This document shows positions 8,603 to 56,360 of a stretch of DNA of 64,000 nucleotides, in pieces (positions within the stretch are counted from its first letter, which is position 1; every line of letters starts with the position of its first letter). The notes beneath the pieces are model-generated. The model did not search any database. It saw nothing but the letters and a program-made list of their open reading frames with translations, and was not told the origin of the DNA. The stretch is from positions 4,183,001-4,247,000 of the forward strand of contig NC_015275.1 in assembly GCF_000178835.2 (NCBI RefSeq), given 5' to 3'. Made by a program: the position numbers and the translations under genes. The DNA is from Cellulosilyticum lentocellum DSM 5427 (lineage in GTDB: Bacteria > Bacillota > Clostridia > Lachnospirales > Cellulosilyticaceae).

Positions 8603-10507
8603 ATGTTAATAAACAAGTTACTTAAACATAGATATATTCTTATTTTTTTACTACTTGTAATAGGTGGCTTTGCTATTTATCTTTTCTCCCTACCCCCACG
8701 TAGTGAAAAAGATACTTTACAAGTTATGCGCTTAAAAGCAGATGCCACTTCCACTTTTAGATTGGAATCACAACTGAGTTATACACCTGATTTAATATCG
8801 CAATTAAAATCCAATTTGACGCAAACAACTACAGAATCATCTCCTATTCACGTGTTTAATATTAGTATTTCTCTAGGACATGAACCCATGCAGCTTAATC
8901 AGGTAGTTAATGAGCTTGTTTCACTAGCCACTTATGTACCTAAGCTAACGATTTCTTTAATCCCTGATGATGAAATAGATGAAACAACTTATATGAATCT
9001 CTACAACGATTTTACTTCTCTATTAGCCCTGCAAAACAGTTCCAATATTGAGGTCATTTGTTATCCCTTAGATTTATCAAGCCTCAAACAATATACCCAG
9101 TTAGATAGTATTTCTAGTATAGGTGTCAACATTAGTAGCACCGACGATTTAGAGAAACTTAATGTTATCTATAACTTCCTTAATGACGCAAAAAAACTAT
9201 ATATCAGGGAAAACTTACTCAACAGCTCTAGTGATAATATCAGAAAAACTACTGAAGAAATTAATGCTCTATACTATACTTTGGCCATTCAATATCCTGA
9301 ATGTCAAACAATCTTTTCTCCTCTTATTAAATTACCTTTTGGATTGCAAGATGCTTTTGTACTTACAGAAAAAAATCCTAACTATGCCACATACCAGAGC
9401 ATCTATGGCAGATTATTAACTGAGCCATGGTTAACACTTAAGGAACTGCCTTTAGCTACTACTTCTCCTTATGAACTTTTGGATAGCTATGATATACTTA
9501 CCGGCACAGAAGAAATTCTCCTTGCACCTGGATCAACTATTTTACCTGGAAAGTCTATAAGCACTTCTAAAACTAGCTATATACACTACAGATTAGAAGA
9601 CCAAGAGATATCTGTGCAGAGCTATTACCCTTATGTAGCTAAAATAGATACCACTTCGGAGCCTAATGGCATAACTAGATTTAAAGCTCTTGGCTATAAT
9701 AGTACTGGTGAAATAACTGAAGTGCAAAGTATAGATTTAACAATTCAAAATGACAATGCCTTTTCACGTGCTGAACGTAGCTTGAGAGATTTCCCGCTTA
9801 CTAGCCAAATGGTATATAATTCTAAATATATTCCTATTTTGATGTATCATACCGTTGCAGAGACGGTATCTACAGAGGAAAATAATAGCTGCGTTGAAAT
9901 AGAATTATTTGATGCTCAAATGAAAGCATTAATAGATAACGGATATACACCTATTAATTTCAAAGTACTTTACGACTATATAAATAGAGTAAGCGGTTTA
10001 CCCGAAAAGCCTATTTTAATCACTATGGATGATGGCTACTTAAACAACTATACAAACGCTTATCCTATTTATAAGAAATATAATATTCCAGCTACACTAT
10101 TCGTTTCTCCCTATTTTATGGAAAAAGAGAATACAGAAAGGCACTTTGGTTGGAAGGCTGCTAAAGAAATGGAGGACAGTGGTTTAATCGATATTCAATC
10201 ACATGGCTATAATCACACCCCTCTTCCTTATCTTTCTTTAAAAGATGTACGATATCATATCTCACGTTCTAAAGGACTTATAGAAAAGAATCTAGGGCCG
10301 CGCGATGTATTTGTGGTAGCCTACCCACAATTTCGTAACACCAGCTACACAAGAAAGCTTTTATCTGAACTCGGCATCGATCTTCAAATTACCAAACTTG
10401 CAAAAAGAGGGACGGTTCTTGATGCTTCTAATTTAAAGCGAATTAATGTTCCTAATACTATGTCTCCGGAAGAACTCATTAGTACGCTTGAAAAACTAAC
10501 GAATTAA
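8603..10507 (+). CDS. Membrane-anchored polysaccharide deacetylase (NodB-type)
   Basis: The 634-residue protein has a single N-terminal membrane segment (residues about 10-30, YILIFLLLVIGGFAIYLF) and no cleavage site, so the rest lies outside the cell. Residues 35-400 are an unrecognised region. From about residue 409 there is a carbohydrate esterase family 4 domain: PILMYH opens it, TMDDGY near 473 carries the metal and base Asp residues, SHGYNH near 533 gives the two metal-binding His, and AYPQF follows. The expected reaction is removal of acetyl groups from N-acetylglucosamine polymers, peptidoglycan or a surface polysaccharide. An exact copy of the dispersed motif GGGACGGTTCTT lies inside the gene at 10409-10420 and is read as Gly-Thr-Val-Leu near residue 603. 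The inverted-pair copy 24 bases past the stop serves as terminator. Confidence 0.85.
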   Translation: MLINKLLKHRYILIFLLLVIGGFAIYLFSLPPRSEKDTLQVMRLKADATSTFRLESQLSYTPDLISQLKSNLTQTTTESSPIHVFNISISLGHEPMQLNQVVNELVSLATYVPKLTISLIPDDEIDETTYMNLYNDFTSLLALQNSSNIEVICYPLDLSSLKQYTQLDSISSIGVNISSTDDLEKLNVIYNFLNDAKKLYIRENLLNSSSDNIRKTTEEINALYYTLAIQYPECQTIFSPLIKLPFGLQDAFVLTEKNPNYATYQSIYGRLLTEPWLTLKELPLATTSPYELLDSYDILTGTEEILLAPGSTILPGKSISTSKTSYIHYRLEDQEISVQSYYPYVAKIDTTSEPNGITRFKALGYNSTGEITEVQSIDLTIQNDNAFSRAERSLRDFPLTSQMVYNSKYIPILMYHTVAETVSTEENNSCVEIELFDAQMKALIDNGYTPINFKVLYDYINRVSGLPEKPILITMDDGYLNNYTNAYPIYKKYNIPATLFVSPYFMEKENTERHFGWKAAKEMEDSGLIDIQSHGYNHTPLPYLSLKDVRYHISRSKGLIEKNLGPRDVFVVAYPQFRNTSYTRKLLSELGIDLQITKLAKRGTVLDASNLKRINVPNTMSPEELISTLEKLTN

Positions 10508-10530
10508 AATAAAAAAAGAAGGACAGAAAA

Positions 10531-10573
10531 AGAGGGACGGTTCTTAAATTCTACATTTAAGAACCGTCCCTCT
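10531..10573. terminator. Bidirectional terminator built from an inverted pair of the dispersed 12-mer
   Basis: Perfect 19-base arms (10531-10549 and 10555-10573) with the 5-base loop TCTAC. Each arm contains GGGACGGTTCTT or its complement. It lies between the convergent genes ending at 10507 (+) and 10580 (-), so it can stop transcription from both sides. Confidence 0.75.
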
Positions 10574-10579
10574 CTCTCT

Positions 10580-12103
10580 TTAACCTATTAGCATTTTATC
10601 ATTATAGTCTTTTTGTAATTCATATCTTAAATAATTAATTAACTGATCTAAGAAAGTGGCACACTCTGCTTTAGTTACTAACTTTTTAGGAAGTATATAG
10701 CCGTTACTAGGTGTAATAATACCTAAATTACTTGCTGCATAAATAGAAGATTTAGCCCAGCTAGAAATCTGTCCATCGTCTACAAATGGTGTATAGCTAT
10801 CCATAGTTCCTAGTCCTAGTCTTTCTAAACCTATTGCTTTTACATTAAGTAAATACATAAGTTCTCTGGTCATACTCGTATTGCCATTAAAGTATCCTCC
10901 ATCAATTAGACCCGCTTTATAAGCTGCAACAGCATATGGATAATAACTATCCCCTTCACTAATGTCTTTAAATGGGGACGGTTCTACTTGTTTTTTAGAG
11001 GAACTACGTGTACTTTTGCTGTTTTCTTCTGGCAATGGGATTTGAAGAGCTTTTACAAGCATCTTTACATATTCTTTTTTTGTCACAATTTGATTTGGTG
11101 AAAAAGTAAGTGGATTTTCATCAAAGATCTTCATGCTATACATTTTCTTAATTTGAGTTTCTGCTGGATGTCCTTTAAGATTGAGTGATGTCGGTATAGA
11201 AAGTTGTTCCACTGTAGGGCTACTTTCTATATTCATCATGCCAGATAGTTCATCATCATATAACCCAATATTACCTTGTAAAATATTATAACTTAGTGCA
11301 CCTTCGCTTCTGATAATTTCTTTGTAGTTTCCTGCCATGCTTATAGCAGTTGGTTCATTAGCCCCATATTGTATATCTCTATATACAGTAACTGTTGGTG
11401 TTTCCTCTACCGCATAGCCTTTACCACTAGCTAAATCTATGGTTATCTCTCTCTTTTGTGTTTCTGTTTTTGCAAATGCTTGTTCATAACCATAAATAGG
11501 TGCATTAACTGCTATCACAATATTTTTTTCTTCTCCTGGATTCCCTACCCCTTCATAAACAGCTTCATAGTGTACATCACCTCTATAGTAAAGTACACCT
11601 GGTGTATCATCTTCTAGTACACTCTTGGAGTATTGAGATTTTGTATTATCTAAGGTATAGCTTTGTCCTTTTACTGTAATAATTTCTTTCCACTTTTTAG
11701 CTTTGGTAACTTTTGTAGTCTGTTTTCTATTGGCTTCGTATATGTATTGCGTTTCAAAAGTAATATCTCTAGTCAGCTTTACTGTACCATCTGTATTAGC
11801 AGCTTCCATAACATATCTCTCAGTATATGTTCCTTCAGCTTTTTCTTTATCTACACCCTTGCCCGGCGAAATAGTTACTGTTCCTTCTACTAATTCTGCC
11901 TTGCCAGTCAAATAAATATTCTCTTTATAAGGTAAAGTATATTTTGACGTAGTGGATTTCTTACTTGTTTGCGCCATAGAAGTTAAAGTTTCTAATTTAA
12001 CTCCTGGTGTAATCCCACCAAAGCTTCCCATCTCACCTTCGGCTGCAAAGGTCGAGGTTGCAAATAACATAAAACTTATTCCCAGTGTTAGTATTTTTTT
12101 CAT
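10580..12103 (-). CDS. Exported protein with three C-terminal SLH domains
   Basis: The 507-residue protein has signal peptide MKKILTLGISFMLFATSTFAA and AGGAGG upstream. Residues 25-310 are a Thr/Tyr-rich beta-type region of unknown function. Three S-layer-homology repeats follow: roughly 315-365 (HPAETQIKKMYSMKIF), 385-435 (PFKDISEGDSYYPYAVAAY) and 440-500 (PFVDDGQISSWAKSSIYAA). SLH domains bind pyruvylated wall polysaccharide, so the protein should be wall-anchored. The start lies 9 bases after the stop of the 12113-13858 gene, which indicates one operon. A one-mismatch copy of the dispersed motif at 10975-10986 falls at the beginning of the second SLH repeat and is read as Glu-Pro-Ser-Pro. 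Confidence 0.85.
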   Translation of the reverse strand: MKKILTLGISFMLFATSTFAAEGEMGSFGGITPGVKLETLTSMAQTSKKSTTSKYTLPYKENIYLTGKAELVEGTVTISPGKGVDKEKAEGTYTERYVMEAANTDGTVKLTRDITFETQYIYEANRKQTTKVTKAKKWKEIITVKGQSYTLDNTKSQYSKSVLEDDTPGVLYYRGDVHYEAVYEGVGNPGEEKNIVIAVNAPIYGYEQAFAKTETQKREITIDLASGKGYAVEETPTVTVYRDIQYGANEPTAISMAGNYKEIIRSEGALSYNILQGNIGLYDDELSGMMNIESSPTVEQLSIPTSLNLKGHPAETQIKKMYSMKIFDENPLTFSPNQIVTKKEYVKMLVKALQIPLPEENSKSTRSSSKKQVEPSPFKDISEGDSYYPYAVAAYKAGLIDGGYFNGNTSMTRELMYLLNVKAIGLERLGLGTMDSYTPFVDDGQISSWAKSSIYAASNLGIITPSNGYILPKKLVTKAECATFLDQLINYLRYELQKDYNDKMLIG

Positions 12104-12112
12104 TTTGACCTC

Positions 12113-13858
12113 CTAGTTCTCTACAATGATGATATAACCATTTACCGCGCCTGCAGAATCTTTTAAGTTAGTTTCAACCATGGCACTGATGATATCGCCT
12201 TCTTCTAGGCTACGGGCTGGAACTACTTTACCATCCTTTAAAATAACAGTATTAGACTGAAGATTAATGGTAGCCCCTGTATTTTTCTTGCTATATTGAA
12301 CCCATTTCTTTTGCTGTTTATGGTAATAATATGCATCTTTAATTTGAATACTACCATCAGCAGCTTTATAGACCTGTCCCTTAACAGATTCTGTTATATA
12401 TGGCATATCAATAATCATATAAGCTTTATCACCTATAGCCACTACTGTATACACATTACTTACTTCTGATTTATCTCCATAATCTAGGAATGCCTCAATT
12501 CCATCTTCTACAATACCCTCTGCTGTATAGAACTTGGTATTAGCATCTATTGAGAAAGTATGTGGTGTTGGATGATAGTACCATGTATTATCTTGTAGTA
12601 ATGAGAAAGTTTCAAATTGGAAAGACTCTCTTTCTTTAATTTGTTTAATTCTTCCTCTAAATACCTCTAAAGAACCTGTTGTTTTCTCGCTCAATATATT
12701 TCCAATAGCCAGCTTGTTCTCACCAGTAACAACAGCCTGCAAGGTATCTCCTACCATAATACTGTTACCATCAACTAAACGTTTATCTCTTACTACAATA
12801 GCATCTTCTGCAATATAAATGGTTTCTCCCGATAATAATTTTACCGTATTTGCAGAAGCATAGGTTACTAGGGACGGTTCTAATGTAGTTTGAAGCTTAC
12901 TCTGGAAATTTAGCTTGATTGCATTTTCTTTTCCTTTATAGTTTTCTGCTGCTACATACACATATCCATCCGCATTTTTTAAGTTTCTACTTACATAATC
13001 TAGCGATACACGATTTCCAATAAGGTAAGCTGCTACATTAGTAGTATCTAATCCTATACGTAGTAAACTATTATATGCTCCCCAATTAGTTTTCCCTAAT
13101 GCCTGAGCATTTTTTAAGTTAAGCACCTTCTTAAATGTATCTACAGAGGTAACCTGGCCCCTATAAATATTAGAAATATATCTTGTATCATTATCAATTA
13201 CAATTTCTTGAACAGTCTCATCTATAATGCCTTCCCCTAAAATCTTTTGACAAACTAATACTTTCACCCAACTTCCAGTTTTAATTGCACTTAAAGCAGT
13301 TGATGTACTACCTTTAGTTACGGGTGTATTAAGTCCTACATCATAAACATAGACGTTTCCTTGGTCATCTTGAAGCTGCAAACCAGCTGTTTCTCCTGTA
13401 TTATATTGGAAAGAAATAACCTTACCATAACGCACTAAATAGTCATTGTATGCGCTGATATAAGTTGCAATTCCATCTTTATTTAATCTAATATAAATGC
13501 TGTCACCTGCTTGAATACTTGTTATAGATGAATCTCTAGGGTCATATTCAAAATTAGGAAACATCTCATCAATATATCCTATCCTATCCTCCATCTCATA
13601 GTAGGGTTGCTTTTCAACTACTAATTCATCTTTATAGTAATTACAAGTTATCTCTCTACCTTGGCTATTCTTATATACTAAATATCCTAGCTCTGGATAA
13701 TTTTCTACGACGATTCCTCTATCTTCTGTATAATTATCATATAACATATCATTGTATTCTGATTCTGTAAGATATGCAGGTATCTCTGCAAATGTTGTCA
13801 TACCCATACCAACGCTTAAAATAACTGTCCCCAGTATGTAACACCAACGTTTTCCCAT
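12113..13858 (-). CDS. Exported protein of unknown function, operon partner of the SLH protein
   Basis: The 581-residue protein has an N-terminal signal peptide (MGKRWCYILGTVILSVGMG, cleavage near TTFAE) and AGGAGG at normal spacing. No family was recognised. The chain alternates short beta-type segments with recurring phrases such as IKTGSWVKVLV, IMVGDTLQAVV and LEEGDIISAMV, which suggests several copies of a small beta-barrel fold in tandem. No Cys pairs, SLH repeats or catalytic motifs are evident after the signal. Being first in a two-gene unit with an SLH protein suggests a wall or extracellular structural role. A one-mismatch copy of the dispersed motif at 12871-12882 is read as Glu-Pro-Ser-Leu. 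Confidence 0.75.
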   Translation of the reverse strand: MGKRWCYILGTVILSVGMGMTTFAEIPAYLTESEYNDMLYDNYTEDRGIVVENYPELGYLVYKNSQGREITCNYYKDELVVEKQPYYEMEDRIGYIDEMFPNFEYDPRDSSITSIQAGDSIYIRLNKDGIATYISAYNDYLVRYGKVISFQYNTGETAGLQLQDDQGNVYVYDVGLNTPVTKGSTSTALSAIKTGSWVKVLVCQKILGEGIIDETVQEIVIDNDTRYISNIYRGQVTSVDTFKKVLNLKNAQALGKTNWGAYNSLLRIGLDTTNVAAYLIGNRVSLDYVSRNLKNADGYVYVAAENYKGKENAIKLNFQSKLQTTLEPSLVTYASANTVKLLSGETIYIAEDAIVVRDKRLVDGNSIMVGDTLQAVVTGENKLAIGNILSEKTTGSLEVFRGRIKQIKERESFQFETFSLLQDNTWYYHPTPHTFSIDANTKFYTAEGIVEDGIEAFLDYGDKSEVSNVYTVVAIGDKAYMIIDMPYITESVKGQVYKAADGSIQIKDAYYYHKQQKKWVQYSKKNTGATINLQSNTVILKDGKVVPARSLEEGDIISAMVETNLKDSAGAVNGYIIIVEN

Positions 13859-13923
13859 TTTTGATTCCTCCTAAGTAAAACTAACCTTAACATTTATATC
13901 GACTTGCTTCTTTACTTTCTTTA

Positions 13924-14040
13924 GGGACAGGTCTTAATTTATTATGTTGTTTTATAGTGTTTTACAGGGACAGGTCTTTAATCATGCCGGTCTTTAATCA
14001 TGCCTAGCTTATGGAGACTAGCTTATGGGGACAGGTCTTA
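13924..14040 (+). repeat. Tandem array of the 12-mer GGGACAGGTCTT
   Basis: There are three exact direct copies (13924-13935, 13967-13978, 14028-14039) and a truncated one near 13988. Two of the full copies and the truncated one are followed by TAATCATG or TTAATCATG, so the repeated unit is longer than the 12-mer. The array lies between the galU terminator and the start of the 12113-13858 gene. Confidence 0.8.
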
Positions 14041-14070
14041 ATCATGAGCTTCATTATGTCTGGATAATAA

Positions 14071-16743: not shown

Positions 16744-16785
16744 GGGACAGGTCTTAGTATATGTTATATGTTAGGGACAGGTCTT
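16744..16785 (+). repeat. Two direct copies of GGGACAGGTCTT
   Basis: Exact copies at 16744-16755 and 16774-16785, each preceded by TTA and followed by TA or TT, 30 bases apart, between ddl and spoIIR. Confidence 0.8.
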
Positions 16786-18617: not shown

Positions 18618-18629
18618 TAGACCTGTCCC
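18618..18629 (-). repeat. Dispersed 12-mer (GGGACAGGTCTA) upstream of the RAYT gene
   Basis: A single inverted-orientation copy with one mismatch, in the 88-base gap between the transposase start and the end of the GerC-type gene. Confidence 0.7.
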
Positions 18630-18639: not shown

Positions 18640-19794
18640 TTATTCAAGCATTCCCGTATTATGAATAGTAACTATTGTTACTACTTTGATTGGTATATTT
18701 TTATATCCTGTTATCAGCCATTGATTTTCATAAGACTCCCATTCTTTAGGATGCTTACGATACATTTCTAATCCTATATTTAGAAAATCCACGTTTATTT
18801 CTTTTGAATAGACAATACTCTCTTGTGTTTGCTTATTAATTTCTGCTTTAATTAAACTGCCTATTTCTCTTATGCTTGATTCATTAAATAATTCGTTCTG
18901 CTCTGATGATACAAACTCTGTTATATTTCCTTTTACTTTTATTTCTATCTCTGCACACCATTCACCATTATTTGCATTAAAAGAAACTCTAGATTCTTCT
19001 TCCTCTATATTGTAGGTCAAATTCTCCCCTTTATATTTCACAACAATAGGCACTTCTTTAATCTTTCCCTCAACGAACAATTCTCCTCTTACTTGCTCCT
19101 TGTTTATCCAGTCTGCTAACTCATAATCTTTAATTACTGCAGCACCTTGAATAAGAACCGTCCCTTCTTGATCACTTATTACAGGAATGGTAGTTACGCC
19201 TGTATTTTGCAATTCTTTTATCAGATTGCCTAACGTTTGTTGTTTCGCATAGCTAGTTGGCCGTTCTGAATTATTAAAGAATTTCATAACATAAAGTCCT
19301 ATGATAGGATTCTGAGGATTTTTAGCTTGTGTTAACTTTCCAGCCTTTCCCTTCACAGCTAAAATACTTGTTCCTCTCCCTATCTGCATATTTCTAATAA
19401 GCCCATCAATAGTTGCTTTAAACAGTTCCTTATCTTTTAGCAATTCCTCTCCCAATACTAAAGCTTTAGTATGGCTGAAGGTAACTGTATTTTGTGTTTT
19501 ACGTTCTACTTCATCAACACTTGTGGCTATCGTTGAGCTTTTGGTTATTATCGCTGTTTTTACATCTTCTGATAAACTATCTTGGCCTGATAACTTTGCT
19601 ATATCTGGTATTGTATAGGTGACTTCATATCGTTTATCTTGTGCTTCTGTACTACTTTGTTTTGAAGCATCATTTTTATCTATTGCAACCTCTAAAACCA
19701 CATGTCTCTCATTAATCTCTACACTATCCCAGCACCCTGTTAAAACAAAAGGTAAAAAGATAATTATGATATATTTTAATTTATTAATGATCAT
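18640..19794 (-). CDS. Spore germination lipoprotein, GerAC/GerKC type
   Basis: The 384-residue C subunit of a nutrient germinant receptor, lipid-anchored on the spore inner membrane. The ATG at 19792-19794 follows GAGGAG by 8-9 bases and overlaps the end of the permease gene by 11 bases. The product opens with a lipoprotein signal ending LTGC (Cys21) and then WDSVEINERHVVLEVAIDK, the hallmark of the family. Later family segments include SFSHTKALVLGEEL and the C-terminal KHPKEWES. An exact dispersed 12-mer at 19153-19164 is read as Gly-Thr-Val-Leu in the family region that precedes the variable AV-F/I strand. Last gene of the four-gene operon. Confidence 0.9.
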   Translation of the reverse strand: MIINKLKYIIIIFLPFVLTGCWDSVEINERHVVLEVAIDKNDASKQSSTEAQDKRYEVTYTIPDIAKLSGQDSLSEDVKTAIITKSSTIATSVDEVERKTQNTVTFSHTKALVLGEELLKDKELFKATIDGLIRNMQIGRGTSILAVKGKAGKLTQAKNPQNPIIGLYVMKFFNNSERPTSYAKQQTLGNLIKELQNTGVTTIPVISDQEGTVLIQGAAVIKDYELADWINKEQVRGELFVEGKIKEVPIVVKYKGENLTYNIEEEESRVSFNANNGEWCAEIEIKVKGNITEFVSSEQNELFNESSIREIGSLIKAEINKQTQESIVYSKEINVDFLNIGLEMYRKHPKEWESYENQWLITGYKNIPIKVVTIVTIHNTGMLE

Positions 19795-20881
19795 AACCAA
19801 CTCTCCTCACTTTAGCAATTAACCATAATAAAAGAGGGACAGGTATTAAAAACCATGCTCCAAAACAGCGCTGGAACTTAATATAGTAATCGTATGTTTG
19901 AATTAAACTTGTAGGCCATACTGCTATGAAATAAACTATTGGCACAAGAGGTAATACAAATACATTTTCTCTTTTAAATCTGAAGCTTCTGCTTCCTATA
20001 AGTGAAGTAAAATAAAGACCTGAACTAATATACATAAATATGCTGAGTATCCAGCCTGTCATCATAAAAATCTCTTGATTTTCTATGATTCTTCCGGCAT
20101 TTTCAATGCTTTGCATAAGCGTTAATACTGGCCATATCTGCCTATCAACTTCACCAATTCCAATACTACATATAGTTAGCAGAATAATAAGCGCCTCTAA
20201 TATTGCAATAATAAGAATAGCCCTAAATGCTGCCCGTCTTGCTTTCTTTGGTTTTTCCATTAACCCAGTCATCATCAACATAAATTCAATAGGCATAAAA
20301 CTTAAGCTAATATAGTAGCTTCCCCGACCCACCTGCGCGAGGTTAGTCTGAAAAAAAGGCATAACTTGCTTATAATCTGCACTTATAAGAATTTTGCAAA
20401 AAACAATCCCTAAGGGAACAAATACAAAATAAACTAAAATCTCTCCCATTCTGGCTGTTGCTTCCATTCCTGATTTCACAAGGTAAGCTGTTGATAAAAG
20501 CATAACCAACATAATCACTACTAAAGGTGTTTTAGGTAACATCACTTGAGTAATCATTTCTCCGAACATACGTAATTCTAACCCTGTTGTTACAATAAGT
20601 TTTATAGCAAATGCAATGACGATAATATATGCTACAAATCTAGGCACAACCTTAGGCGTAAATTCTACCAGAGTATCACCCGGGAAATTTTTAGTCAATC
20701 CTGTAATACACCACACATAAATTACACCAAAGATTAAGGCTACTATAGGTAATATATATCCATTTCTTCCTACAAAATCAGCTGCCATCTTCGGTAATAT
20801 AAGAATAGTCATATTAAACATCTGCAAGACAAGTAGCATAGTAACCTGTCTAACCGATATCTTTCCATTATGGGTAAACAT
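19784..20881 (-). CDS. Spore germination permease, GerAB/GerKB type
   Basis: The 365-residue integral membrane B subunit of a germinant receptor (spore permease family, APC fold). It starts VRQVTMLLVLQMF after a short cytoplasmic tip and shows about ten hydrophobic segments with little between them. The ribosome site GGAGGTGAG lies within the end of the A-subunit gene; stop and start codons abut. The expected role is recognition of small nutrients by the A/B/C receptor. A one-mismatch dispersed motif at 19836-19847 is read in the last membrane segment as Ile-Pro-Val-Pro-Leu, an unusually Pro-rich stretch for a helix. Confidence 0.9.
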   Translation of the reverse strand: MFTHNGKISVRQVTMLLVLQMFNMTILILPKMAADFVGRNGYILPIVALIFGVIYVWCITGLTKNFPGDTLVEFTPKVVPRFVAYIIVIAFAIKLIVTTGLELRMFGEMITQVMLPKTPLVVIMLVMLLSTAYLVKSGMEATARMGEILVYFVFVPLGIVFCKILISADYKQVMPFFQTNLAQVGRGSYYISLSFMPIEFMLMMTGLMEKPKKARRAAFRAILIIAILEALIILLTICSIGIGEVDRQIWPVLTLMQSIENAGRIIENQEIFMMTGWILSIFMYISSGLYFTSLIGSRSFRFKRENVFVLPLVPIVYFIAVWPTSLIQTYDYYIKFQRCFGAWFLIPVPLLLWLIAKVRRVGYDH

Positions 20882-22828: not shown

Positions 22829-22886
22829 AAAAGAGAGGGACGGTTCTTAAAATGCTTAAGCATTTTAAGAACCGTCCCTCTCTTTT
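22829..22886. terminator. Perfect 58-base palindrome containing an inverted pair of the 12-mer
   Basis: The 29-base arms (22829-22857, 22858-22886) are perfectly complementary with no loop bases. Each arm carries GGGACGGTTCTT (22837-22848) or its complement (22867-22878). It lies 6 bases past the LacI gene stop with A and T runs at both ends, so it should terminate that transcript. Confidence 0.8.
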
Positions 22887-24037: not shown

Positions 24038-24094
24038 AACTAAGTTAAAGAACCGTCCCCATATTTTACATAGGGACGGTTCTTTAACTTAGTT
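24038..24094 (-). terminator. glgP terminator built from an inverted pair of the 12-mer
   Basis: Perfect 22-base arms (24038-24059, 24073-24094) and a 13-base loop, 25 bases past the glgP stop. The arms include the 12-mer at 24048-24059 and 24073-24084. Confidence 0.75.
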
Positions 24095-24119: not shown

Positions 24120-26480
24120 TTACTTAACTGTTTTTGGTGTAATACCCCAAATCTCGTTAGCATATTGCATAATGGTTCTATCACTTGAGAAGATACCTGA
24201 GTTTGCAATGTTCATTAAGCTCATTTGTGCCCAATGTTTTTGATCTTTATATGCTGCAAATACTTTATCTTCAGCTTCTTTAAATGCTACAAAGTCAGCT
24301 AATAAGAAGTAAGTATCTCCTTCGTTTACTAATGAATTATATAAATCTTGGAATTCACCTGTACCACCATCGCAGAATGTACCATCTACTAATGCATCTA
24401 CTACTGTTTTTAGGGACAGGTCTGCTTCGTAGTATTCTTTTGAATTGTATTTACCACCAATTTGTTCGATATCTTCTACACGAAGACCAAAGATGAAGTT
24501 ATTTTCTTCTTTTGCTTCTTGAACGATTTCTACGTTTGCTCCATCGTATGTTCCAAATGTTAAAGCACCGTTCATCATGAATTTCATGTTACCTGTACCT
24601 GATGCTTCTTTACCTGCTGTTGAAATTTGTTTTGAAATATCTGCAGCTGGGAAGAGTTTTTCACCGTAAGATACGCGGTAGTTTTCTACGAAGATAACTT
24701 TCATTTTGCCACCGATAACTGGGTCATTGTTAACTTTCTTAGCAATTTCTCCAATAAATTTAACGATAGCTTTTGCTCTTACATAACCTGGGAATGCTTT
24801 TGCACCGAAGATAAATGTAACATTTGGAATATCCATTGATGGATTAGCTTTAAGTCTATTATATAAATCTAAGATATAAAATGCATTAAGTAATTGACGT
24901 TTGTACTCATGTAAACGTTTGATTTGGATATCAAATAATGAGTTTGGATCAAGCTCTACGCCTTCTACTTCTTTAATGTAAGCTGCAAGCTGTTCTTTCT
25001 TAGTTTTCTTAATAGCCATAAGTTTATTAAGTACAGCTTCATCATCGATGTATTTTTCTAATTGTTTAAGCTCTGATAAATTATTTACCCAGCTTTCTGT
25101 TCCTAAGAGCTCAGTGATGTATGCTGATAATTCTTGGTTACAAAGTCTCATCCATCTTCTTGGTGTGATACCATTTGTTTTGTTTTGGAATTTCTCTGGA
25201 TATAATTCATACCAGTTGTGTAATTCTGTATCTTTTAAGATATCTGTATGAAGTGCAGCAACACCATTTACAGCGAAACCAACATAGATCGCTAAGTTAG
25301 CCATTCTTACTTGGTTGTAATTTATGATTTTAAATTCATTGATTGCTTCTTTATCATAACCTTTATCTTCTAATTCTTGTACGAAAACAAAGTCAATGTG
25401 ACGGATGATTTCAAGAATACGTGGGAAAAGTTTTTCAATAAGTTTGACATCCCATTTTTCTAAAGCTTCAGCTAAAATCGTATGATTTGTATAAGCAAAT
25501 ACTGTTTTGGCAATACTTAAAGCATCTTTAAATTTTACATTTTCTTCGTCAACTAAGATTCTAATTAATTCTGGGATAGCAAGAACTGGGTGAGTATCAT
25601 TAAGCTGAACTGCATGTTCTTTTCCAAAGCTGCTAAAGTCACTACCGAATTTAGCTTTATGTGTACGGATAATATCTTTTAAGCTTGCACTTACCATGAA
25701 GTATTGTTGACGTAGTCTTAAAAGTTTACCAGCTTCTTTTGAGTCATTTGGATAAAGTACTCTTGAAATGTTTTCTGCATCATTTTTGCATTTTAAAGCT
25801 TCTGTATATTCTTGTTTGTTAAATAGGTCAAAGTCAAAGCTTTCAAGAGACTCTGATTGCCATAGTCTAAGTGTGTTTACATTTTTAGAACCGTAAGCAA
25901 TAATTGGCATATCATAAGGTACAGCTTTTACACTGTAATCACTAAATTCTACAATAACAGCTTCGTCATCTTTACGGATACTCCATGGATCACCATATTT
26001 AAGCCATGTATCAACCTCTTCCATTTGAGCTCCATCAACCATTTTTTGATTGAATAAACCGTTTGAGTAACGGATTCCGTATCCTTGAAGTGGAATGTTT
26101 GTTGTTGCTCCTGAATCCATAAAACAGGCAGCAAGTCTACCAAGACCACCATTACCAAGTCCAGCATCTTCTTCAATTTCTTCAATAGCATTAAGATCAA
26201 TGTTAAGTTCGTTAAGTACTTCCTTAACTTCATCATATACACCCATGCTGATTAAATTGTTACCAAGTGCACGACCCATTAAATATTCAGCTGATAAGTA
26301 GTATGCTTTTTTCCCTTGGTTGTATAATGCTTTTGTTTCACTCCAGTCATCAACTACTTCTTCAAGTAACGCTAAAGATAGCGCATTAAAAATTTCATAA
26401 TCTTTTGCTTCTCCCAAAGATTTTCCATATTTAACTTTACAATATTTGTTTATGCTATTTTTAAGTGCTTCCTTATTCAT
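24120..26480 (-). CDS. glgP: Glycogen/maltodextrin phosphorylase
   Basis: Phosphorolysis of alpha-1,4-glucans to glucose-1-phosphate, using pyridoxal phosphate. The 786-residue protein has the expected length. Conserved features: EYLMGRALGNNL near residue 63, GNGGLGRLAACFMDS near 108, QLNDTHPVLAIPELIRIL near 290, the phosphate site EASGTGNMKFMMNGA with the PLP Lys near 632. The start codon overlaps the malQ stop by 8 bases, so translation is coupled. Within the conserved YEADLSLKTVVDAL region a one-mismatch dispersed motif (24413-24424) encodes Asp-Leu-Ser-Leu, with no length change against the family pattern. It degrades maltodextrins imported by the adjacent transporter, and may also act on stored glycogen. 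Confidence 0.95.
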   Translation of the reverse strand: MNKEALKNSINKYCKVKYGKSLGEAKDYEIFNALSLALLEEVVDDWSETKALYNQGKKAYYLSAEYLMGRALGNNLISMGVYDEVKEVLNELNIDLNAIEEIEEDAGLGNGGLGRLAACFMDSGATTNIPLQGYGIRYSNGLFNQKMVDGAQMEEVDTWLKYGDPWSIRKDDEAVIVEFSDYSVKAVPYDMPIIAYGSKNVNTLRLWQSESLESFDFDLFNKQEYTEALKCKNDAENISRVLYPNDSKEAGKLLRLRQQYFMVSASLKDIIRTHKAKFGSDFSSFGKEHAVQLNDTHPVLAIPELIRILVDEENVKFKDALSIAKTVFAYTNHTILAEALEKWDVKLIEKLFPRILEIIRHIDFVFVQELEDKGYDKEAINEFKIINYNQVRMANLAIYVGFAVNGVAALHTDILKDTELHNWYELYPEKFQNKTNGITPRRWMRLCNQELSAYITELLGTESWVNNLSELKQLEKYIDDEAVLNKLMAIKKTKKEQLAAYIKEVEGVELDPNSLFDIQIKRLHEYKRQLLNAFYILDLYNRLKANPSMDIPNVTFIFGAKAFPGYVRAKAIVKFIGEIAKKVNNDPVIGGKMKVIFVENYRVSYGEKLFPAADISKQISTAGKEASGTGNMKFMMNGALTFGTYDGANVEIVQEAKEENNFIFGLRVEDIEQIGGKYNSKEYYEADLSLKTVVDALVDGTFCDGGTGEFQDLYNSLVNEGDTYFLLADFVAFKEAEDKVFAAYKDQKHWAQMSLMNIANSGIFSSDRTIMQYANEIWGITPKTVK

Positions 26481-28174: not shown

Positions 28175-28186
28175 AAGAACCGTCCC
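28175..28186 (-). repeat. Single dispersed 12-mer GGGACGGTTCTT
   Basis: Exact copy in minus orientation, 9 bases past the stop of the MalG-type gene; unpaired. Confidence 0.75.
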
Positions 28187-33111: not shown

Positions 33112-34014
33112 ATGATTTATACCGTAACCTTAAACCCATCTTTAGATTACGTCATGCATTTAGATCAAATGAATGCTCACTGTGTTAATAGAAGTAATAA
33201 AGAAGAGATTTATCCTGGTGGTAAGGGTATTAATGTCTCAATTGTACTTAATAATTTACGTATTCCTAATAAAGCACTAGGTTTTATTGCTGGCTTTACA
33301 GGGAAAGAAATTGAGAATGTCATGAAACAATTAGGTGGAGACACTGATTTCATCTTGCTCGATCGTGGTATTTCTAGAATTAATGTAAAACTTGAAGCAG
33401 ATAAAGAAACTGAAATCAATGGTATGGGACCTCAAATTACACCTAGTGATTTAAAGGACCTTTATATCAAATTAGAACAAATCGAAGAAGGCGACTTCTT
33501 AGTCTTAGCTGGAAGCATTCCAAAAAGTGTCCCTGATAGTATTTACAAAGACATCATGAAAATGCTAGCTAATAAAAATATTAATGTGGTAGTAGATGCT
33601 ACTAAAGATTTGCTTCTTAATGTACTTCAATACAAACCATTCCTTATTAAACCAAATCATATTGAGCTAGCTGAGATGTTCAATGTCACATTAAATTCAG
33701 ATGATGACATTGTTACCTATGCTCGAAAACTACAAGAAATGGGTGCTCAAAATGTACTTATCTCTATGGGTGGGGACGGTTCTATCTTAATCACCAATGA
33801 AGGCGAAGTAGTTAAAATCTCTGTTCCTGAAGGTACCGTAATTAATACCGTAGGTTCTGGAGATTCTATGGTAGCAGGATTTATTGCTGGCTACCTTAAA
33901 ACTAAAGATTTAAAACAAGCTCTTAAATTCGCTACAGCAACTGGTAGTGCAACTGCCTTTTCTACATGGCTTGCTACTAGCGATAAAATTGATGACTTAC
34001 TTTCTAAGCTATAA
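33112..34014 (+). CDS. fruK: 1-phosphofructokinase
   Basis: Phosphorylates fructose-1-phosphate, made by the adjacent PTS enzyme, to fructose-1,6-bisphosphate. The 300-residue PfkB-family protein begins MIYTVTLNPSLDYVMHLD, the typical 1-phosphofructokinase opening. GGKGINVSIVLNNL near residue 37 is the sugar-binding motif, and NTVGSGDSMVAGFIAGYL near 247 holds the anion hole and base Asp. AGGAGG is at good distance and fruA follows after 21 bases. The string GGGACGGTTCTA at 33773-33784 looks like the dispersed motif but falls in the conserved GGDGS segment, so it may be chance. Confidence 0.95.
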   Translation: MIYTVTLNPSLDYVMHLDQMNAHCVNRSNKEEIYPGGKGINVSIVLNNLRIPNKALGFIAGFTGKEIENVMKQLGGDTDFILLDRGISRINVKLEADKETEINGMGPQITPSDLKDLYIKLEQIEEGDFLVLAGSIPKSVPDSIYKDIMKMLANKNINVVVDATKDLLLNVLQYKPFLIKPNHIELAEMFNVTLNSDDDIVTYARKLQEMGAQNVLISMGGDGSILITNEGEVVKISVPEGTVINTVGSGDSMVAGFIAGYLKTKDLKQALKFATATGSATAFSTWLATSDKIDDLLSKL

Positions 34015-36012: not shown

Positions 36013-36133
36013 GGAACTGTCCCCAATTTCAATCACATTTATCCTCTTATTCACAAGACCTGTCCCTCTTTATTGTCCCTCTTTATTCCTCTTTATTCTT
36101 TTTATTTTAAGAACCGTCCCTAATTTTGTCCCT
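36013..36133 (-). repeat. Degenerate cluster of dispersed motifs
   Basis: In minus orientation: a variant GGAACTGTCCCC (36013-36024), exact AAGACCTGTCCC (36055-36066), exact AAGAACCGTCCC (36109-36120), and two bare GTCCCT stubs at about 36075 and 36128. Both motif families occur side by side, interspersed with T-rich CTTTATT units, between fruA and the chemoreceptor gene. Confidence 0.7.
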
Positions 36134-44841: not shown

Positions 44842-44886
44842 TATGGGGACAGGTCTTAAAAGCAATTTTTAAGACCTGTCCCCATA
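44842..44886. terminator. Bidirectional terminator from an inverted pair of GGGACAGGTCTT
   Basis: Perfect 20-base arms (44842-44861, 44867-44886), 5-base loop. The 12-mers lie at 44846-44857 and 44871-44882. It begins 4 bases past the argC stop and faces the convergent GH13 gene. Confidence 0.8.
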
Positions 44887-44916: not shown

Positions 44917-44965
44917 AAGAACCGTCCCCATTTGTTTGTCCCTTTTTATTCTTAAGAACCGTCCC
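44917..44965 (-). repeat. Two direct copies of GGGACGGTTCTT
   Basis: Exact minus-orientation copies at 44917-44928 and 44954-44965, with a bare GTCCC stub between, 11 bases past the GH13 gene stop. Together with 44842-44886, both motif families share this 137-base gap. Confidence 0.8.
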
Positions 44966-44975
44966 CATAGTAAAA

Positions 44976-48116: not shown

Positions 48117-48155
48117 AAGAACCGTCCCTACTTGCTACCCATTAAGAACCGTCCC
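48117..48155 (-). repeat. Two direct copies of GGGACGGTTCTT, one inside the DUF1294 gene end
   Basis: Exact minus-orientation copies at 48117-48128 (after the stop) and 48144-48155 (coding Gly-Thr-Val-Leu as the penultimate residues), 27 bases apart. Confidence 0.8.
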
Positions 48156-51200: not shown

Positions 51201-51256
51201 ATAATTTGTCTTTTAATTAAGTGTTTTAAATTGCTTGTTTATGTTTTAGAAAGCTA

Positions 51257-52219: not shown

Positions 52220-52279
52220 TACCCCTGCCTCCTTGTAGACTCCTAAATTATTTTGTTCAATTAAGTTAAATCTAACTAT

Positions 52280-52295
52280 TTTGATTATAATCAAA
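52280..52295. promoter_or_regulatory. 16-bp palindromic operator candidate upstream of eda
   Basis: TTTGATTATAATCAAA is a perfect palindrome 60 bases before the eda start, containing a TATAAT on the minus strand. It lies in the divergent gap with the YheO-type regulator gene (52220-52584), which is otherwise AT-rich. Confidence 0.45.
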
Positions 52296-52543
52296 TTATA
52301 TATTATTATTTTTTATATGTATAGTTATTTTAACACTTTTTTTAAGACGTATGTTGGCGATTTATATAAACTTTGATATAAATTGCTACGTATTCGTCAC
52401 GATTCTAATATTTTATTTTATATTTCTTACTTATTTTTATTTATTTTAAAAATCATCCTTAATAATTTGCTTATTATTCTTTATTTAATGTATTATTATT
52501 TTTAGACAAAATCATACTTTTTTATTTATTTGTACACTAATTA

Positions 52544-52552
52544 TGCTATACT
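52544..52552 (+). promoter_or_regulatory. Extended -10 promoter of the YheO-type regulator
   Basis: TGCTATACT, 33 bases before the ATG; no matched -35 box was found. GGGGG at 52575-52579 is the ribosome site. Confidence 0.35.
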
Positions 52553-52584
52553 TATGGTTATAAATCATACTATAGGGGGTAACT

Positions 52585-53238: not shown

Positions 53239-53244
53239 AAAAAC

Positions 53245-53290
53245 AAAAAAAGGAATAGCCCTAATAATATTATTAGTCTATTCCTTTTTT
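53245..53290 (+). terminator. Terminator after the YheO-type gene
   Basis: A long inverted repeat with AAAAAAGGAATA outer arm and CTAATAAT/ATTATTAG inner arm, T-run at 53285-53290, 6 bases past the stop. It also has an A-run for the convergent Nudix gene. Confidence 0.8.
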
Positions 53291-53312
53291 GTATAAGCAA
53301 ATACATATAATG

Positions 53313-53840
53313 TTAGTATTCAGGTACAACACCTGATTCTTTGAGTCTTCTTAAGGCTAAGGTTTCTCTATAAACCCAAGGATTAATCTGTGTCCCCTTT
53401 TGTGTGAGGATTGCCTCATTTTTTGCAATAACCTCATCTAATTCTATCCATCTTGGTTCAAATTCTTGTTCTTCTTCATATTTATCCAAATGTTGTTTTG
53501 TTTTATTAGTTTTTACATCACAAAAATAATAATAAGAAGTCATCTCGAATATCCCTGAAGTATCAAATTGATTAGGATTTCTTTGAACGATAATGCCCGC
53601 ACGTTCTCCCATTCCTTCTATAATATATCCAGTTTCCTCGATTACTTCTCTGCGCAGGGCTTCTTCGTGGCTTTCTTGCCTTTTGATGCCCCCACCAGGA
53701 AATTTATAATCGCCTTTATTCGTGTGTACCATGAGTATCTTATTATCTTTTAAAACAATGGCTCTGACAGCTTGCCTTGTTGTTATTTTTATATTTCTAT
53801 TTTTTATTTTTTGTATACCTAATATCTCATCAATGATCAT
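53313..53840 (-). CDS. Nudix hydrolase
   Basis: The 175-residue protein carries a complete Nudix box near residues 49-71: G-I-K-R-Q-E-S-H-E-E-A-L then RREVIEETGY, matching GX5EX7REUXEEXGU. Nudix enzymes cleave nucleoside diphosphates linked to other groups, with Mg2+; the substrate here is unpredictable. Start at ATG 53838-53840 after AAGGAGG. Single gene. Confidence 0.87.
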   Translation of the reverse strand: MIIDEILGIQKIKNRNIKITTRQAVRAIVLKDNKILMVHTNKGDYKFPGGGIKRQESHEEALRREVIEETGYIIEGMGERAGIIVQRNPNQFDTSGIFEMTSYYYFCDVKTNKTKQHLDKYEEEQEFEPRWIELDEVIAKNEAILTQKGTQINPWVYRETLALRRLKESGVVPEY

Positions 53841-54182
53841 AGACTCCTCCTTATCTCTTTTTGTCGTCTATTTCTTTATATTTAATATGCCTAACTGTTC
53901 AATGTTTTATCAATAAATATATATTCCTTATTTTGCTATGTACGACTAGCTTTGTTTATATTCCCGAATATTTTATTTTATATTATCACATTTCACAAAG
54001 GATTAATAGTTTATTGTTCATATTATTATACTCAAAAATAATTTTTATCATAAAATCATGATATTTTATTTCCTAGAGCATCAGAGAATACAAGAAAAGA
54101 AAGCCCTGTAACATTTTTTTCTGTACCGGGCTTTCTTATTATTTACTCTGTCTCTAATCTATGTCTCTTACAAACTCCTCTG
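53841..54182. other. AT-rich gap between Nudix gene and two-component system
   Basis: 342 bases without credible ORF, about 54 percent or more A/T runs. The only element seen is the terminator at 54097-54137. Confidence 0.4.
54097..54137 (-). terminator. Terminator of the two-component operon
   Basis: Arms AAGAAAGCCC (54097-54106) and GGGCTTTCTT (54128-54137), 21-base loop, 46 bases past the kinase stop. Confidence 0.75.
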
Positions 54183-56360
54183 CTATTTTTTATTTAATGA
54201 AACAGTATCTTTGATAGCAGGTATTTTTACTTCTACTTTAAATAAGTCGCCATCTATACTAATAGCCATTTGTCCTCCTTGCAGGTGCATAAGGCTTTGA
54301 GCTATAGCTAATCCCAAACCTGATCCTTCTGTGGTTCTAGAAGCATCTCCTCTTACAAAACGTTCTGTTAATTCCTGAGGATCAATATTAAGTGCTTCTT
54401 TTGAAATATTTTTAATAATAAATGTCCCATATTCTCCTTCATTTAATACTTCAATATAAGCTCTAGTATGTGGCATTGCATATTTACTTACATTAGAAAG
54501 GAGATTTTCTACCACTCGCCACATATGCCTACTATCCCCTAACACCTTAGCTGGCTGAACTCCCTTTGTAATCAACTGTAAGCCTTGTGCTTCTAGCCTA
54601 TCTGTATATTCCCCTAAAGCTTGAAGTATAAGCTCATCTAGCATAAAAGGTTCTAATTTAGCTTCTACATTTCCAGTTACTGCCTTAGAAGCATCTACCA
54701 AATCCTCTACTAATTGTTTTAATCGATTACTTCTTTCATCTAAAATGCTTATATATTCCTTAGCCGTTTCATTATTTATTTCTTCGCCCTTTAGTAAATC
54801 AATATAGCTAATAATAGAAGTCAAAGGTGTTTTTAAGTCATGTGACACATTGGTAATAAGTTCTGCTTTTAAACGTTCACTTTTTACTGATTGAACTACT
54901 GCTTTTTCAAGACCTGTCCCCATGGTATTAACCGTATCTGCTAAATCTACTAGGACAGGAAGAGACCTTTCTAATTGAATCTTATAGTCTAATTCACCAT
55001 CTGCAATAGCCTTGGTGCCTTCAAGAATTCGTCTATAGTCAAAAACGACCTTGGCTAATCCTAATAATAAAACGCCACTCCAAGCCATCATTAAAATAAT
55101 GAGGATAACAGCTGAACTTAGCGCTAAACCAACTATAAAACTCAAAAGGAATGCCCCTGCATTAATACCAACAAGTACAAATATAGCTACCATCAACATA
55201 CGCTTAGTCATTAAGTATTTTTTTAAAAGTTTTATTACCCTGATAACCCCTATATATTCATCTATACTCTTATTCTTAATATGCTTAATCAAGCTGCTTA
55301 CTACAGCTAACCCAATTCCCACATAAACACTACTTAAAACAAATACCAAGCCAGCTACTATTAGACTTTGAGGGACGGTTCTTGTACCTACATAAGGAAG
55401 ACAACTCAATAAATCAAACGACCTATTAATGTCTTTCATTAATATACTAAAAATAAGTGTACTTATTCCTAGGCCTATCAATTGGAGTTCAAATGGTATC
55501 TTATCAAATCCATTCATTCTAATGTCTTCTTTTTTACTACTTCTTCCTACTGCTACAATCCAATACACCATTAATATAATGCCTACTAATGCAGTAAAAG
55601 CAATCATTTGATAAGTAATCGACTTAAGCTGCTGAGCTTTTTCAAAATTTTGCTCGTAGGTATAAAATACATCTCCTGGTTCAAGTGGTTGTTTAAGGGC
55701 TACATAAACCTCATATTGGCCTTCATCCTCAAATCCTTCACCTCTATAATAATCATAGTGCGTTACTGAATGATTGCCGTATACCCCATATATATTCGTA
55801 TCATAGTCATAATCTCCATATTTTCCATAACTCATCAAAGCGTTACTTCCATTATTAATATAATGACCATCACCCACTAAGTATACTTCTCTATGAGTTA
55901 AATCCTGGAGTATTTTCTCTTCACCAATAGAAGTATCCATATTAGTAATCACCACATTATCTTTTAGGCTTTTAGCATAAAAGTCCACATTAATATTACT
56001 TTTACCGGTAGCACTCTCTATACTCATCAGATAATCTTTTCGGTCTTTCATAATTTTTTGCTGAGCTTCTTCATCAGTTAGTGTACCACCATGAGCTTCT
56101 TTGTACTTCTGAATATCTTCTGCCGTTATATTGCTTATAATCTCTGGCTTTCTGTAACGTACAATATAGTCTCTTACATAACCTGCCTTTTGAATAAAGG
56201 CTTCATTAAAATAATACGTATTATAAATACTATCTTGACTCGGTATTACTTGACTGTTAAAAAAACTAAACAGTGTCAAAAAACCTACTAAGAAAAATCC
56301 TAGAACAGCAATAGTCTTAAGCCAGCTACTATAAATTAATTTTTTCCACCAGGTATCCAC
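54183..56360 (-). CDS. Sensor histidine kinase
   Basis: The 725-residue membrane kinase starts at GTG 56358-56360, overlapping the regulator gene by 32 bases. Layout: membrane segment near residues 15-37, external region to about 245, then about six more hydrophobic segments to about 440, HAMP-like linker, HisKA with phosphorylated His near 505 (NVSHDLKTPLTSIISYIDLL), N-box near 620 (NLLSNVSKYA) and G-box near 680 (GSGLGLAIAQSL). The multi-pass input suggests sensing of membrane or wall state. Two dispersed motifs lie in frame: exact at 54909-54920 (Gly-Thr-Gly-Leu in the pre-HisKA coiled coil) and exact at 55372-55383 (Arg-Thr-Val-Pro in a loop between membrane segments). Confidence 0.9.
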   Translation of the reverse strand: MDTWWKKLIYSSWLKTIAVLGFFLVGFLTLFSFFNSQVIPSQDSIYNTYYFNEAFIQKAGYVRDYIVRYRKPEIISNITAEDIQKYKEAHGGTLTDEEAQQKIMKDRKDYLMSIESATGKSNINVDFYAKSLKDNVVITNMDTSIGEEKILQDLTHREVYLVGDGHYINNGSNALMSYGKYGDYDYDTNIYGVYGNHSVTHYDYYRGEGFEDEGQYEVYVALKQPLEPGDVFYTYEQNFEKAQQLKSITYQMIAFTALVGIILMVYWIVAVGRSSKKEDIRMNGFDKIPFELQLIGLGISTLIFSILMKDINRSFDLLSCLPYVGTRTVPQSLIVAGLVFVLSSVYVGIGLAVVSSLIKHIKNKSIDEYIGVIRVIKLLKKYLMTKRMLMVAIFVLVGINAGAFLLSFIVGLALSSAVILIILMMAWSGVLLLGLAKVVFDYRRILEGTKAIADGELDYKIQLERSLPVLVDLADTVNTMGTGLEKAVVQSVKSERLKAELITNVSHDLKTPLTSIISYIDLLKGEEINNETAKEYISILDERSNRLKQLVEDLVDASKAVTGNVEAKLEPFMLDELILQALGEYTDRLEAQGLQLITKGVQPAKVLGDSRHMWRVVENLLSNVSKYAMPHTRAYIEVLNEGEYGTFIIKNISKEALNIDPQELTERFVRGDASRTTEGSGLGLAIAQSLMHLQGGQMAISIDGDLFKVEVKIPAIKDTVSLNKK

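Follow-up and report, generated by a model that had tools for sequence, protein, structure and literature searches.

A short DNA word, the 12-mer RGGGACRGKTCT, was found to be scattered, both between and inside genes, around a gene encoding a RAYT (REP-associated tyrosine transposase; REP, repetitive extragenic palindromic sequence) in Cellulosilyticum lentocellum DSM 5427 and, at most of the gene sites that can be judged, to have taken the place of existing bases rather than having been added to them. The stretch considered here (the window) comprises 64,000 nucleotides (G000:C1:4183001-4247000) of a chromosome of 4,714,237 bases, with genes having been identified by Pfam. The 11-base core of this 12-mer, hereafter the tag, occurs in two variants, A (GGGACGGTTCT) and B (GGGACAGGTCT), and the window contains 30 exact copies of the core (18 A and 12 B), 20 intergenic and 10 within genes. 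The unit itself, its excess over chance, its clustering and its linkage to RAYT were observed directly. That the tag spreads through a length-neutral, RAYT-dependent drive, together with REPIN-like hairpins between genes (REPIN, an inverted REP pair serving as a mobile unit), is the reading favored here, albeit tentatively, as it could well be wrong.

A test for an excess of the 12-mer across genes had been suggested in an initial annotation made from the sequence alone, and an excess was seen. Positions 8603-56360 comprise 41,463 coding bases, in which 10 copies were found, as compared to a mean of 0.07 (maximum 2) in 300 synonymous shuffles and of 0.003 in 300 shuffles of codon order. These copies lie on both strands and use five of the six frames (sense 0, four copies; sense 1 and sense 2, one each; antisense 2, three; antisense 0, one), as also first described. 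Copies were confirmed in every gene originally named, i.e., those encoding the deacetylase, the SLH protein and its partner, GerC, GerB, GlgP, the DUF1294 protein and, twice, the histidine kinase, with all being exact except that in gerB, which differs at one base (GGGACAGGTATT). Two further copies, at 12369 and 33773, had been missed.

Across the genome, the pattern GGGACRGKTCT gave 64 matches and its reversed control gave two. Sixty of the matches correspond to A or B, four to GGGACAGTTCT and none to GGGACGGGTCT. Half of the A or B copies (30 of 60) fall within the 64-kb window of this 4.71-Mb genome (binomial p 8e-40), and 28 of the 30 outside copies lie within 0.8 Mb of oriC, where 34% would be expected (p 2e-11). 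Position 0 was taken as oriC since the first chromosome genes are dnaA, dnaN, recF and gyrB. Outside the window, where genes were defined as the longest open frames (with NCBIfam matches in six of the 10 checked), all copies but that at 242502 (29 of 30) are found inside open frames of 110 codons or more. Within 800 kb on the origin side (0-0.4 and 4.314-4.714 Mb, without the window), A appeared 10 times and B nine times, versus the 0.06 and 0.07 expected from an order-3 Markov model, and these are the two commonest 11-mers there having at least seven G+C. One-mismatch neighbors of the two variants were near background in the same DNA (4 versus 3.0 and 6 versus 3.3), and neither A nor B was found in the 400 kb sampled on the terminus side (2.0-2.4 Mb).

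Depletion of near-matches by conversion was considered on the basis of 14 one-mismatch sites versus 38 matches to the reversed pattern with at most one mismatch, and was dropped since the Markov comparison just described shows none. As for individual outside copies, those at 239616 and 242502 (L160 and L161), found in frames of 359 and 36 amino acids, have near-identical flanks that look as if the tag had been duplicated together with part of its gene. The copy at 2934914, one of two lying beyond 0.8 Mb from oriC, has a second Y1_Tnp-like gene (2938199-2938414; E 2e-4; 365-aa frame) 3.3 kb away.

The RAYT protein presents the HUH (H66-V-H68) and Y---NP (Y125, N129-P130) motifs, residues that are invariant across 17 aligned proteins, and so contains the Y1_Tnp core of RAYT/TnpA-REP-like HUH transposases. 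Its predicted model (pLDDT 84.8) has an all-helical C-terminal part and finds its closest PDB fold in 4er8, a REP-associated tyrosine transposase with a REP hairpin (E 8.4e-8). Three Y1_Tnp matches are present in the genome, including this gene, which adjoins gerC in nine genomes from two genera, the present one included. The gerC-adjacent orthologs, 45-66% identical over the matched part, come from Cellulosilyticum (G001, G002, where the gene is cut by the contig end, G005 and G006) and from genus g9 (G014, G019, G021 and G023). RAYT is single-copy at a fixed position, with that position pointing to vertical inheritance. Its features point towards the TIRYT/subclass 2.1 kind. Matches to Bac_DnaA_C in three RAYT relatives are weak (E 2e-4 to 0.057, below the curated cut-off), and a profile search of the window protein returned no such match. 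The tag at 18618 (-), upstream of RAYT, is inverted relative to those at 16744 and 16774 (+), downstream, with spoIIR intervening before the downstream pair. All three read AGGGACAG; GGGGACAG, which fits GGGGWSAS, is present at other copies.

In terms of the limits of the unit, position -1 is a purine in 59 of the 60 A or B copies in the genome, with no association between the -1 base and the variant being seen. At position +12, T was found in 19 of the 20 intergenic copies, 18 of 30 copies outside the window and five of 10 window gene copies. Beyond this, intergenic copies run on A-rich, and gene copies show no clear consensus, such that the unit inside genes is the bare RGGGACRGKTCT. Four intergenic inverted pairs are predicted to fold into strong single-strand hairpins (z -8.7 to -12.8), as expected of a REPIN, but many copies are single. 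Moreover, the 12-mer has neither a palindrome of its own nor the GTAG foot of GTAG-type REPs. Part-units reading AGGGACA were noted next to full tags (window 36040-36130 and 44925-44975), as though the first bases alone had been repeated.

The link between the tag and RAYT is strong. When matches to GGGACRGKTCT were counted (with those to the reversed control given in brackets), genomes with RAYT beside gerC yielded 64 (2), 48 (1), 32 (0), 28 (0) and 37 (0) in Cellulosilyticum (G000, G001, G002, G005 and G006, respectively) and 26 (5), 74 (0), 8 (3) and 24 (3) in genus g9 (G014, G019, G021 and G023, respectively). Two genomes with a more distant RAYT elsewhere yielded 5 (0) and 2 (1) (G008 and G012). 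Among 10 relatives with no RAYT match, eight were at chance level, namely G007, 3 (3); G009, 0 (0); G010, 3 (2); G011, 0 (0); G013, 0 (1); G016, 0 (0); G018, 0 (0); and G022, 0 (0), with two congeners being above it. In G007, where gene order is as in the window and there is no RAYT match, no tag was found across the syntenic 20 kb; RAYT-less orthologs with the same bases, which the initial annotation had named as evidence against its proposal, were thus not encountered in this one good case. Clustering at RAYT was also seen elsewhere, with 26 of the 48 matches in G001 being on the 38.7-kb RAYT contig and 13 of the 24 in G023 being within 28 kb. The variants differ by genome, as among A or B copies, B accounts for all five on the C. 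ruminicola (G005) RAYT contig, and A for 23 of 23 on the RAYT contig of G001 and 12 of 12 on that of G006.

The flanks (up to 10 kb) of 80 further RAYT loci, four from genomes counted above, contain 137 matches to the pattern (98 when only the remaining 76 loci are counted) and two to the reversed control. Local tags differ by RAYT. Four Rossellomorea loci contain 12-19 copies of GGGACGGACC, whereas the Clostridium frigidicarnis and C. algidicarnis loci have tags of their own, GGGACGGTTAA (14 copies) and GGGACAGTTCA (11 copies), respectively; at some of the 80 loci, no clear tag was seen. A sister motif, GGGACGGTTCA, has 15 copies on the Clostridiaceae 14S0207 chromosome, 13 of them in the 61 kb round RAYT, the position of which was reckoned from locus data. 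Rossellomorea marisflavi (L119/G059), with RAYT at 0.79 Mb, has 345 matches to GGGACGGWYCW; among the matches listed, all from the plus strand and the first 1.6 Mb, these are dense at 0.4-0.95 Mb, and GGGACGGTTCT clusters at 0.68-0.73 Mb.

Three of the Rossellomorea loci (L072, L080 and L093), 88-90% identical, have gene copies of GGGACGGACC in common (encoding GTDL and GDGP), with 10 of 18, eight of 19 and five of 16 copies, respectively, being in open frames. Gene copies hence exist in a second, distant system. Among these loci (~88-90% nucleotide identity), fresh gain of a tag was not seen, most alignable copies being shared; the unshared copies (L080 17797 and L093 8785) are both intergenic, at alignment gaps or diverged flanks. 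Other RAYT-like loci (L092, L095 from Treponema, L100 from Clostridium tepidiprofundi, L055 and L114) were noted to have 10-mers of their own (GGGACAGACC, AGGTAAGCAG, GGGACAGTCC and GGGCCAGACC), of which 0 of 7, 0 of 10, 0 of 11, 3 of 17 and 0 of 7 copies, respectively, are inside genes. Another such locus, L088, contains 13 copies of CCCCGGGGTC.

Length was retained at most judgeable gene sites. On aligning the 10 exact gene copies of the window with orthologs, six proved to be clean sites of unchanged length, two were consistent with this, one, in the C-terminal tail of the DUF1294 protein (48145), is compatible with either replacement or insertion and one, in the kinase (55372), permits insertion. 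At the clean sites, alignments are gapless in glgP (24413) with eleven orthologs as well as that of G008, in GerC (19154) with ten, the carrier being one residue short four residues upstream, in the SLH partner with seven at each of 12370 and 12871, in PfkB (33773) with five, two of them exact carriers, and in the kinase (54910) with nine, GTGL being native to the genus in other codons. In the deacetylase (10409), G019 and G014 carry the tag, the non-carrier G006 is five residues longer and G007 aligns there without a gap, but lacks one residue immediately upstream. The SLH copy (10975) is in a linker of variable length. At 55372, in a variable region, there is a pairwise gap of four residues versus G001, and of 0 to 3 residues with nine orthologs.

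Gene copies in relatives are likewise ungapped at G006 4783, in GerB of G001 and G006 (a shared copy), at G002 17741 and at G002 9848. Others are in protein tails, namely that of LacI, lengthened into the tag (G001 8906 and G005 11905), and that of GerA (G001 6943). Six proteins encoded outside the window were compared with PDB homologs. Three are ungapped, i.e., HemL, with GTVL in place of the GSLL or GALL of the three homologs shown, LplD, with RTVP versus RAVP or RTIP, and EcfA, with GTVL versus GIVF or GMIF. UvrA-like, ungapped but diverged, and PEP synthase, where the alignment has a gap of one residue at the tag site, offer weak support, and L155 gave no useful alignment. Replacement rather than insertion, set apart from ordinary transposition in the initial annotation, is therefore what most judgeable sites reveal. 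The peptides encoded by the tag in genes are native ones or differ slightly from these. The annotation further expected relatives to lack the motif bases, as holds for some sites but not for 33773, exact in three Cellulosilyticum species, for 10409 and 10975, both exact in G019, or for the native GTGL of 54910.

Whether such replacement occurred in one step or many was addressed at 12 sites by comparing identity between carriers and non-carriers to identity among non-carriers. These 12 remained of 16 entries after removal of four: 10409, where an alignment gap falls within the site; G006 11242 and G002 6197, each represented by an entry that was retained; and G002 9848, with two orthologs only. 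The unalignable 55372 was in neither set, and the comparison likewise did not take in G019 33334 or the majority of copies found in protein tails of relatives. In glgP, carriers and non-carriers share 3.08 of 11 bases versus 5.91 among non-carriers, the lowest value of 747 gene windows, and in PfkB (33773), 6.00 versus 9.67 of 11, the lowest of 286. The sites at 12871 and G006 4783 fall at the 5th percentile of gene windows, and eight of the 12 sites are unremarkable, among them 10975, which goes in the opposite direction (99th percentile). Pooling all 12 gave a Fisher p of 1.6e-4, a figure that sets a floor of 0.001 on individual p values and takes three sites within a single gene to be independent. 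Several tag sites are already right at 8 to 10 of 11 bases in some relatives. Judging from these alignments, some gene sites look overwritten and others look like completed near-matches. Single events are uncountable at such ortholog distances, since synonymous sites are probably saturated. A similar mixture is described for neisserial uptake sequences, in a part of that work where recombination is argued (PMC2397512).

Table 1. The RAYT gene and copies of the tag in the window (positions are those of the window; dG in kcal/mol).
Feature	Position	Strand	Remarks
Gene copy A, polysaccharide deacetylase	10409..10420	+	GTVL, sense
Intergenic inverted pair A (10534+, 10559-)	10534..10570	.	hairpin; dG -21, z -9.9
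Gene copy A, SLH protein	10975..10986	+	EPSP, antisense; 1 base off in G014/G023, exact in G019
Gene copy B, SLH partner	12369..12380	-	KGQVY, sense; absent from initial annotation
Gene copy A, SLH partner	12871..12882	+	EPSL, antisense
Three direct intergenic copies B (13924, 13967, 14028)	13924..14039	+	
Two direct copies B beyond spoIIR	16744..16785	+	inverted relative to copy upstream of RAYT
RAYT/TnpA-REP-like Y1 transposase, 301 aa	17664..18569	-	PF01797, E 1.8e-16
Copy B between gerC and RAYT start	18618..18629	-	
Gene copy A, gerC	19153..19164	-	GTVL, sense
One-mismatch copy GGGACAGGTATT, gerB	19836..19847	+	IPVPL, antisense
Intergenic inverted pair A (22837+, 22867-)	22837..22878	.	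hairpin; dG -26.3, z -12.8
Intergenic outward inverted pair A (24048-, 24073+)	24048..24084	.	dG -16.4, z -8.7
Gene copy B, glgP	24413..24424	+	DLSL, antisense; among the two sites that look most clearly overwritten
Intergenic copy A	28175..28186	-	
Gene copy A, PfkB kinase	33773..33784	+	GDGS, sense; exact in 3 Cellulosilyticum species; absent from initial annotation
Intergenic copies B (36055) and A (36109)	36055..36120	-	flanked by part-units GGGACA
Intergenic inverted pair B (44846+, 44871-)	44846..44882	.	hairpin; dG -21.3, z -11.9
Two direct intergenic copies A	44917..44965	-	
Two direct copies A	48117..48155	-	48144-48155 in C-terminal tail of DUF1294 gene, GTVL
Gene copy B, histidine kinase	54909..54920	-	GTGL, sense; residues native to genus
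Gene copy A, histidine kinase	55372..55383	+	RTVP, antisense; variable region

The closest known systems can be compared insofar as they are covered by the available parts of the papers cited. Like TIRYT/TIRtron (subclass 2.1 TnpA-REP-like HUH) systems, the system considered here has a Y1 core with an extra C-terminal part (PMC3733652, PMC6006769) and repeats partly arranged as dimers or clusters, with some copies (GGGGACAG) fitting GGGGWSAS, as do many flanking repeats of TIRYT/subclass 2.1 (PMC3733652). In the available descriptions, subclass 2.1 genes have no REP-like sequences nearby (PMC6006769) and their C-terminal helix-turn-helix (HTH) kinds are Bac_DnaA_C, HTH_23 and HTH_28 (PMC3733652, PMC6006769). 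Unlike TIRYT as there described, exact single length-neutral units in genes and an origin-side gradient are seen here. A fixed single-copy RAYT with its own repeat and hairpin pairs is shared with REP/REPIN systems (PMC2817692, PMC3116915); as more than one-third of REPs are near rayt in Thauera, according to the portion available (PMC2817692), local clustering as such is already known. However, REPs are described as 20-40 bp palindromes, GTAG-tagged and mainly extragenic, and those inside genes are reported as in-frame insertions (PMC3733652, PMC6006769), unlike the bare 12-mer, with no GTAG, that replaces bases here. Rickettsia palindromic elements also occur within open frames but are inserted in frame, whereas the tag keeps length (PMC3733652).

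Neisseria DNA uptake sequences, for which drive versus selection is debated, are likewise short exact words, also found as close inverted pairs, and in relatives they correspond at some sites to unrelated sequence and at others to a word with one mismatch, as given in the available part of PMC2397512. Unlike those sequences, the tag is concentrated around a single transposase gene and within the half of the chromosome containing the origin, rather than showing the spread over the whole core genome that characterizes uptake sequences. The cyanobacterial word HIP1 is a palindrome tied to methyltransferases and is far more frequent than is the tag. A short word in large excess is what the two have in common, going by the HIP1 description available (PMC4390886). 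A search of the literature, covering few subscription papers, returned no recognized report of length-neutral RAYT tags in genes. The motif's letters are found in 83 papers; the 15 of these that were listed deal, going by title, with other subjects.

In the tentatively favored RAYT-dependent drive, RGGGACRGKTCT would be the recognition tag of the TIRYT-like transposase encoded beside gerC. Near RAYT, intergenic hairpin pairs and direct copies, the anatomy of which is evident, may multiply in the manner of REPINs. In genes, single exact copies would arise through base replacement with length being kept, and would then be spread or retained by a transmission bias that depends on RAYT. Specifically, RAYT may nick single-stranded DNA at the tag, with repair or strand exchange with tag-less DNA copying the tag strand, so that tagged alleles would prevail, in a way comparable to what biased uptake may achieve for neisserial uptake sequences. 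A cis preference of the transposase would account for the dense core near RAYT; replication, or else a C-terminal domain resembling that of DnaA, may underlie the wider distribution across the origin half. Drive would account for the exactness and sharp edges of the tag, the absence of carried flanks and the link to RAYT, and is supported by the clustering of tags at RAYT in this genome and in relatives, by the different local tags of different RAYTs, by the ungapped alignments, by the HUH fold being closest to 4er8 and by the sharp limits of the 12-mer, whose -1 purine is degenerate in a manner reminiscent of protein recognition.

Several points weigh against this drive. The center of the 34 pattern matches outside the window (4.63 Mb) is nearer oriC than is RAYT (4.20 Mb), such that plain decay with distance from RAYT is insufficient to explain the origin bias. 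C. ruminicola (G005:C74) has a split RAYT frame, and in G001 (G001:C86) the frame is interrupted by stops, with tags persisting in both. Tags also appear in the two congeners with no RAYT match, namely G003, 6 (0), and G004, 14 (0), from assemblies that are 81 and 86% complete, and in G017, 29 (7), where RAYT is found solely as a short remnant with stops (G017:C97), meaning that tags outlast the gene or that the gene was missed. Finally, among 15 other RAYT loci, 5-10 gene copies were found in only three, all Rossellomorea, with the other twelve having 0-3.

Ectopic short-patch copying, in which a freed or single-stranded tag anneals where the sequence matches in part and writes over 11-12 bases at once, is a credible, if unlikely, alternative, and one close to the templated conversion or short-patch copying proposed in the initial annotation. 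It fits glgP and PfkB better than does drive, is in line with the low percentiles at 12871 and G006 4783 and the pooled p value, and agrees with near-matches being at background level. Yet, donor flanks were not carried along, eight of the 12 sites show no divergence burst, 10975 is reversed and several sites were already near-matches in relatives. It is possible that each copy was templated from another. The more inclusive proposal, that a domesticated HUH transposase overwrites both genic and intergenic sequence with its own 12-base tag, in a templated manner at constant length and most densely at its gene and in the origin half, strikes us as improbable.

Selection for a functional site, with the tag being bound by a host protein or a tamed RAYT, serving a chromosomal role near the origin and arising by favored point mutations, is likewise doubtful. 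Such chromosomal binding sites have parallels in parS, DnaA boxes and KOPS. Selection of this kind fits the origin-side bias (28 of 30) best and is consistent with the exactness of the tag, a bounded motif with set degenerate positions, the PfkB copy being exact in three species and the weak Bac_DnaA_C matches in RAYT relatives. It sits poorly with the extreme pile-up of hairpins and direct arrays at the RAYT gene, the species-specific variants and the broken RAYT frames in relatives.

That a 12-bp mobile repeat was inserted in the ordinary way and retained only if in frame is very improbable, as ungapped alignments at glgP, 12370, 12871, GerC, PfkB, 54910, GerB (G001, G006 and G002), HemL, LplD and EcfA led to its rejection at most judgeable sites; it retains the four-residue gap at 55372 and copies in protein tails (48145, G001 8906, G005 11905 and G001 6943), with 55372 and 48145 being the remaining window sites. 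Chance, or a preference for common peptides (GTGL, GTVL and GDGS), may explain single copies at native peptides, such as GTGL of the kinase and GDGS of a second PfkB (G001 17572 and G002 6197), but can be dismissed for the set as a whole given the synonymous shuffles, the use of antisense frames (EPS, DLS and RTVP) and the origin- and terminus-side samples.

How short exact tags, such as uptake sequences, HIP1 and REP units, enter genes with length unchanged is an old open question. For many new neisserial tags, point mutation is called an unlikely origin and the original mechanism is left open in the available part of PMC2397512. The system described here makes the question testable, as a single fixed gene, RAYT, is the obvious suspect and copy number is low enough for all sites to be tracked, with a RAYT-free relative of the same gene order (G007) and distinct RAYTs with distinct tags being further assets. 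Should the overwriting reading be true, mobile DNA would here propagate by writing over sequence that is already in place.

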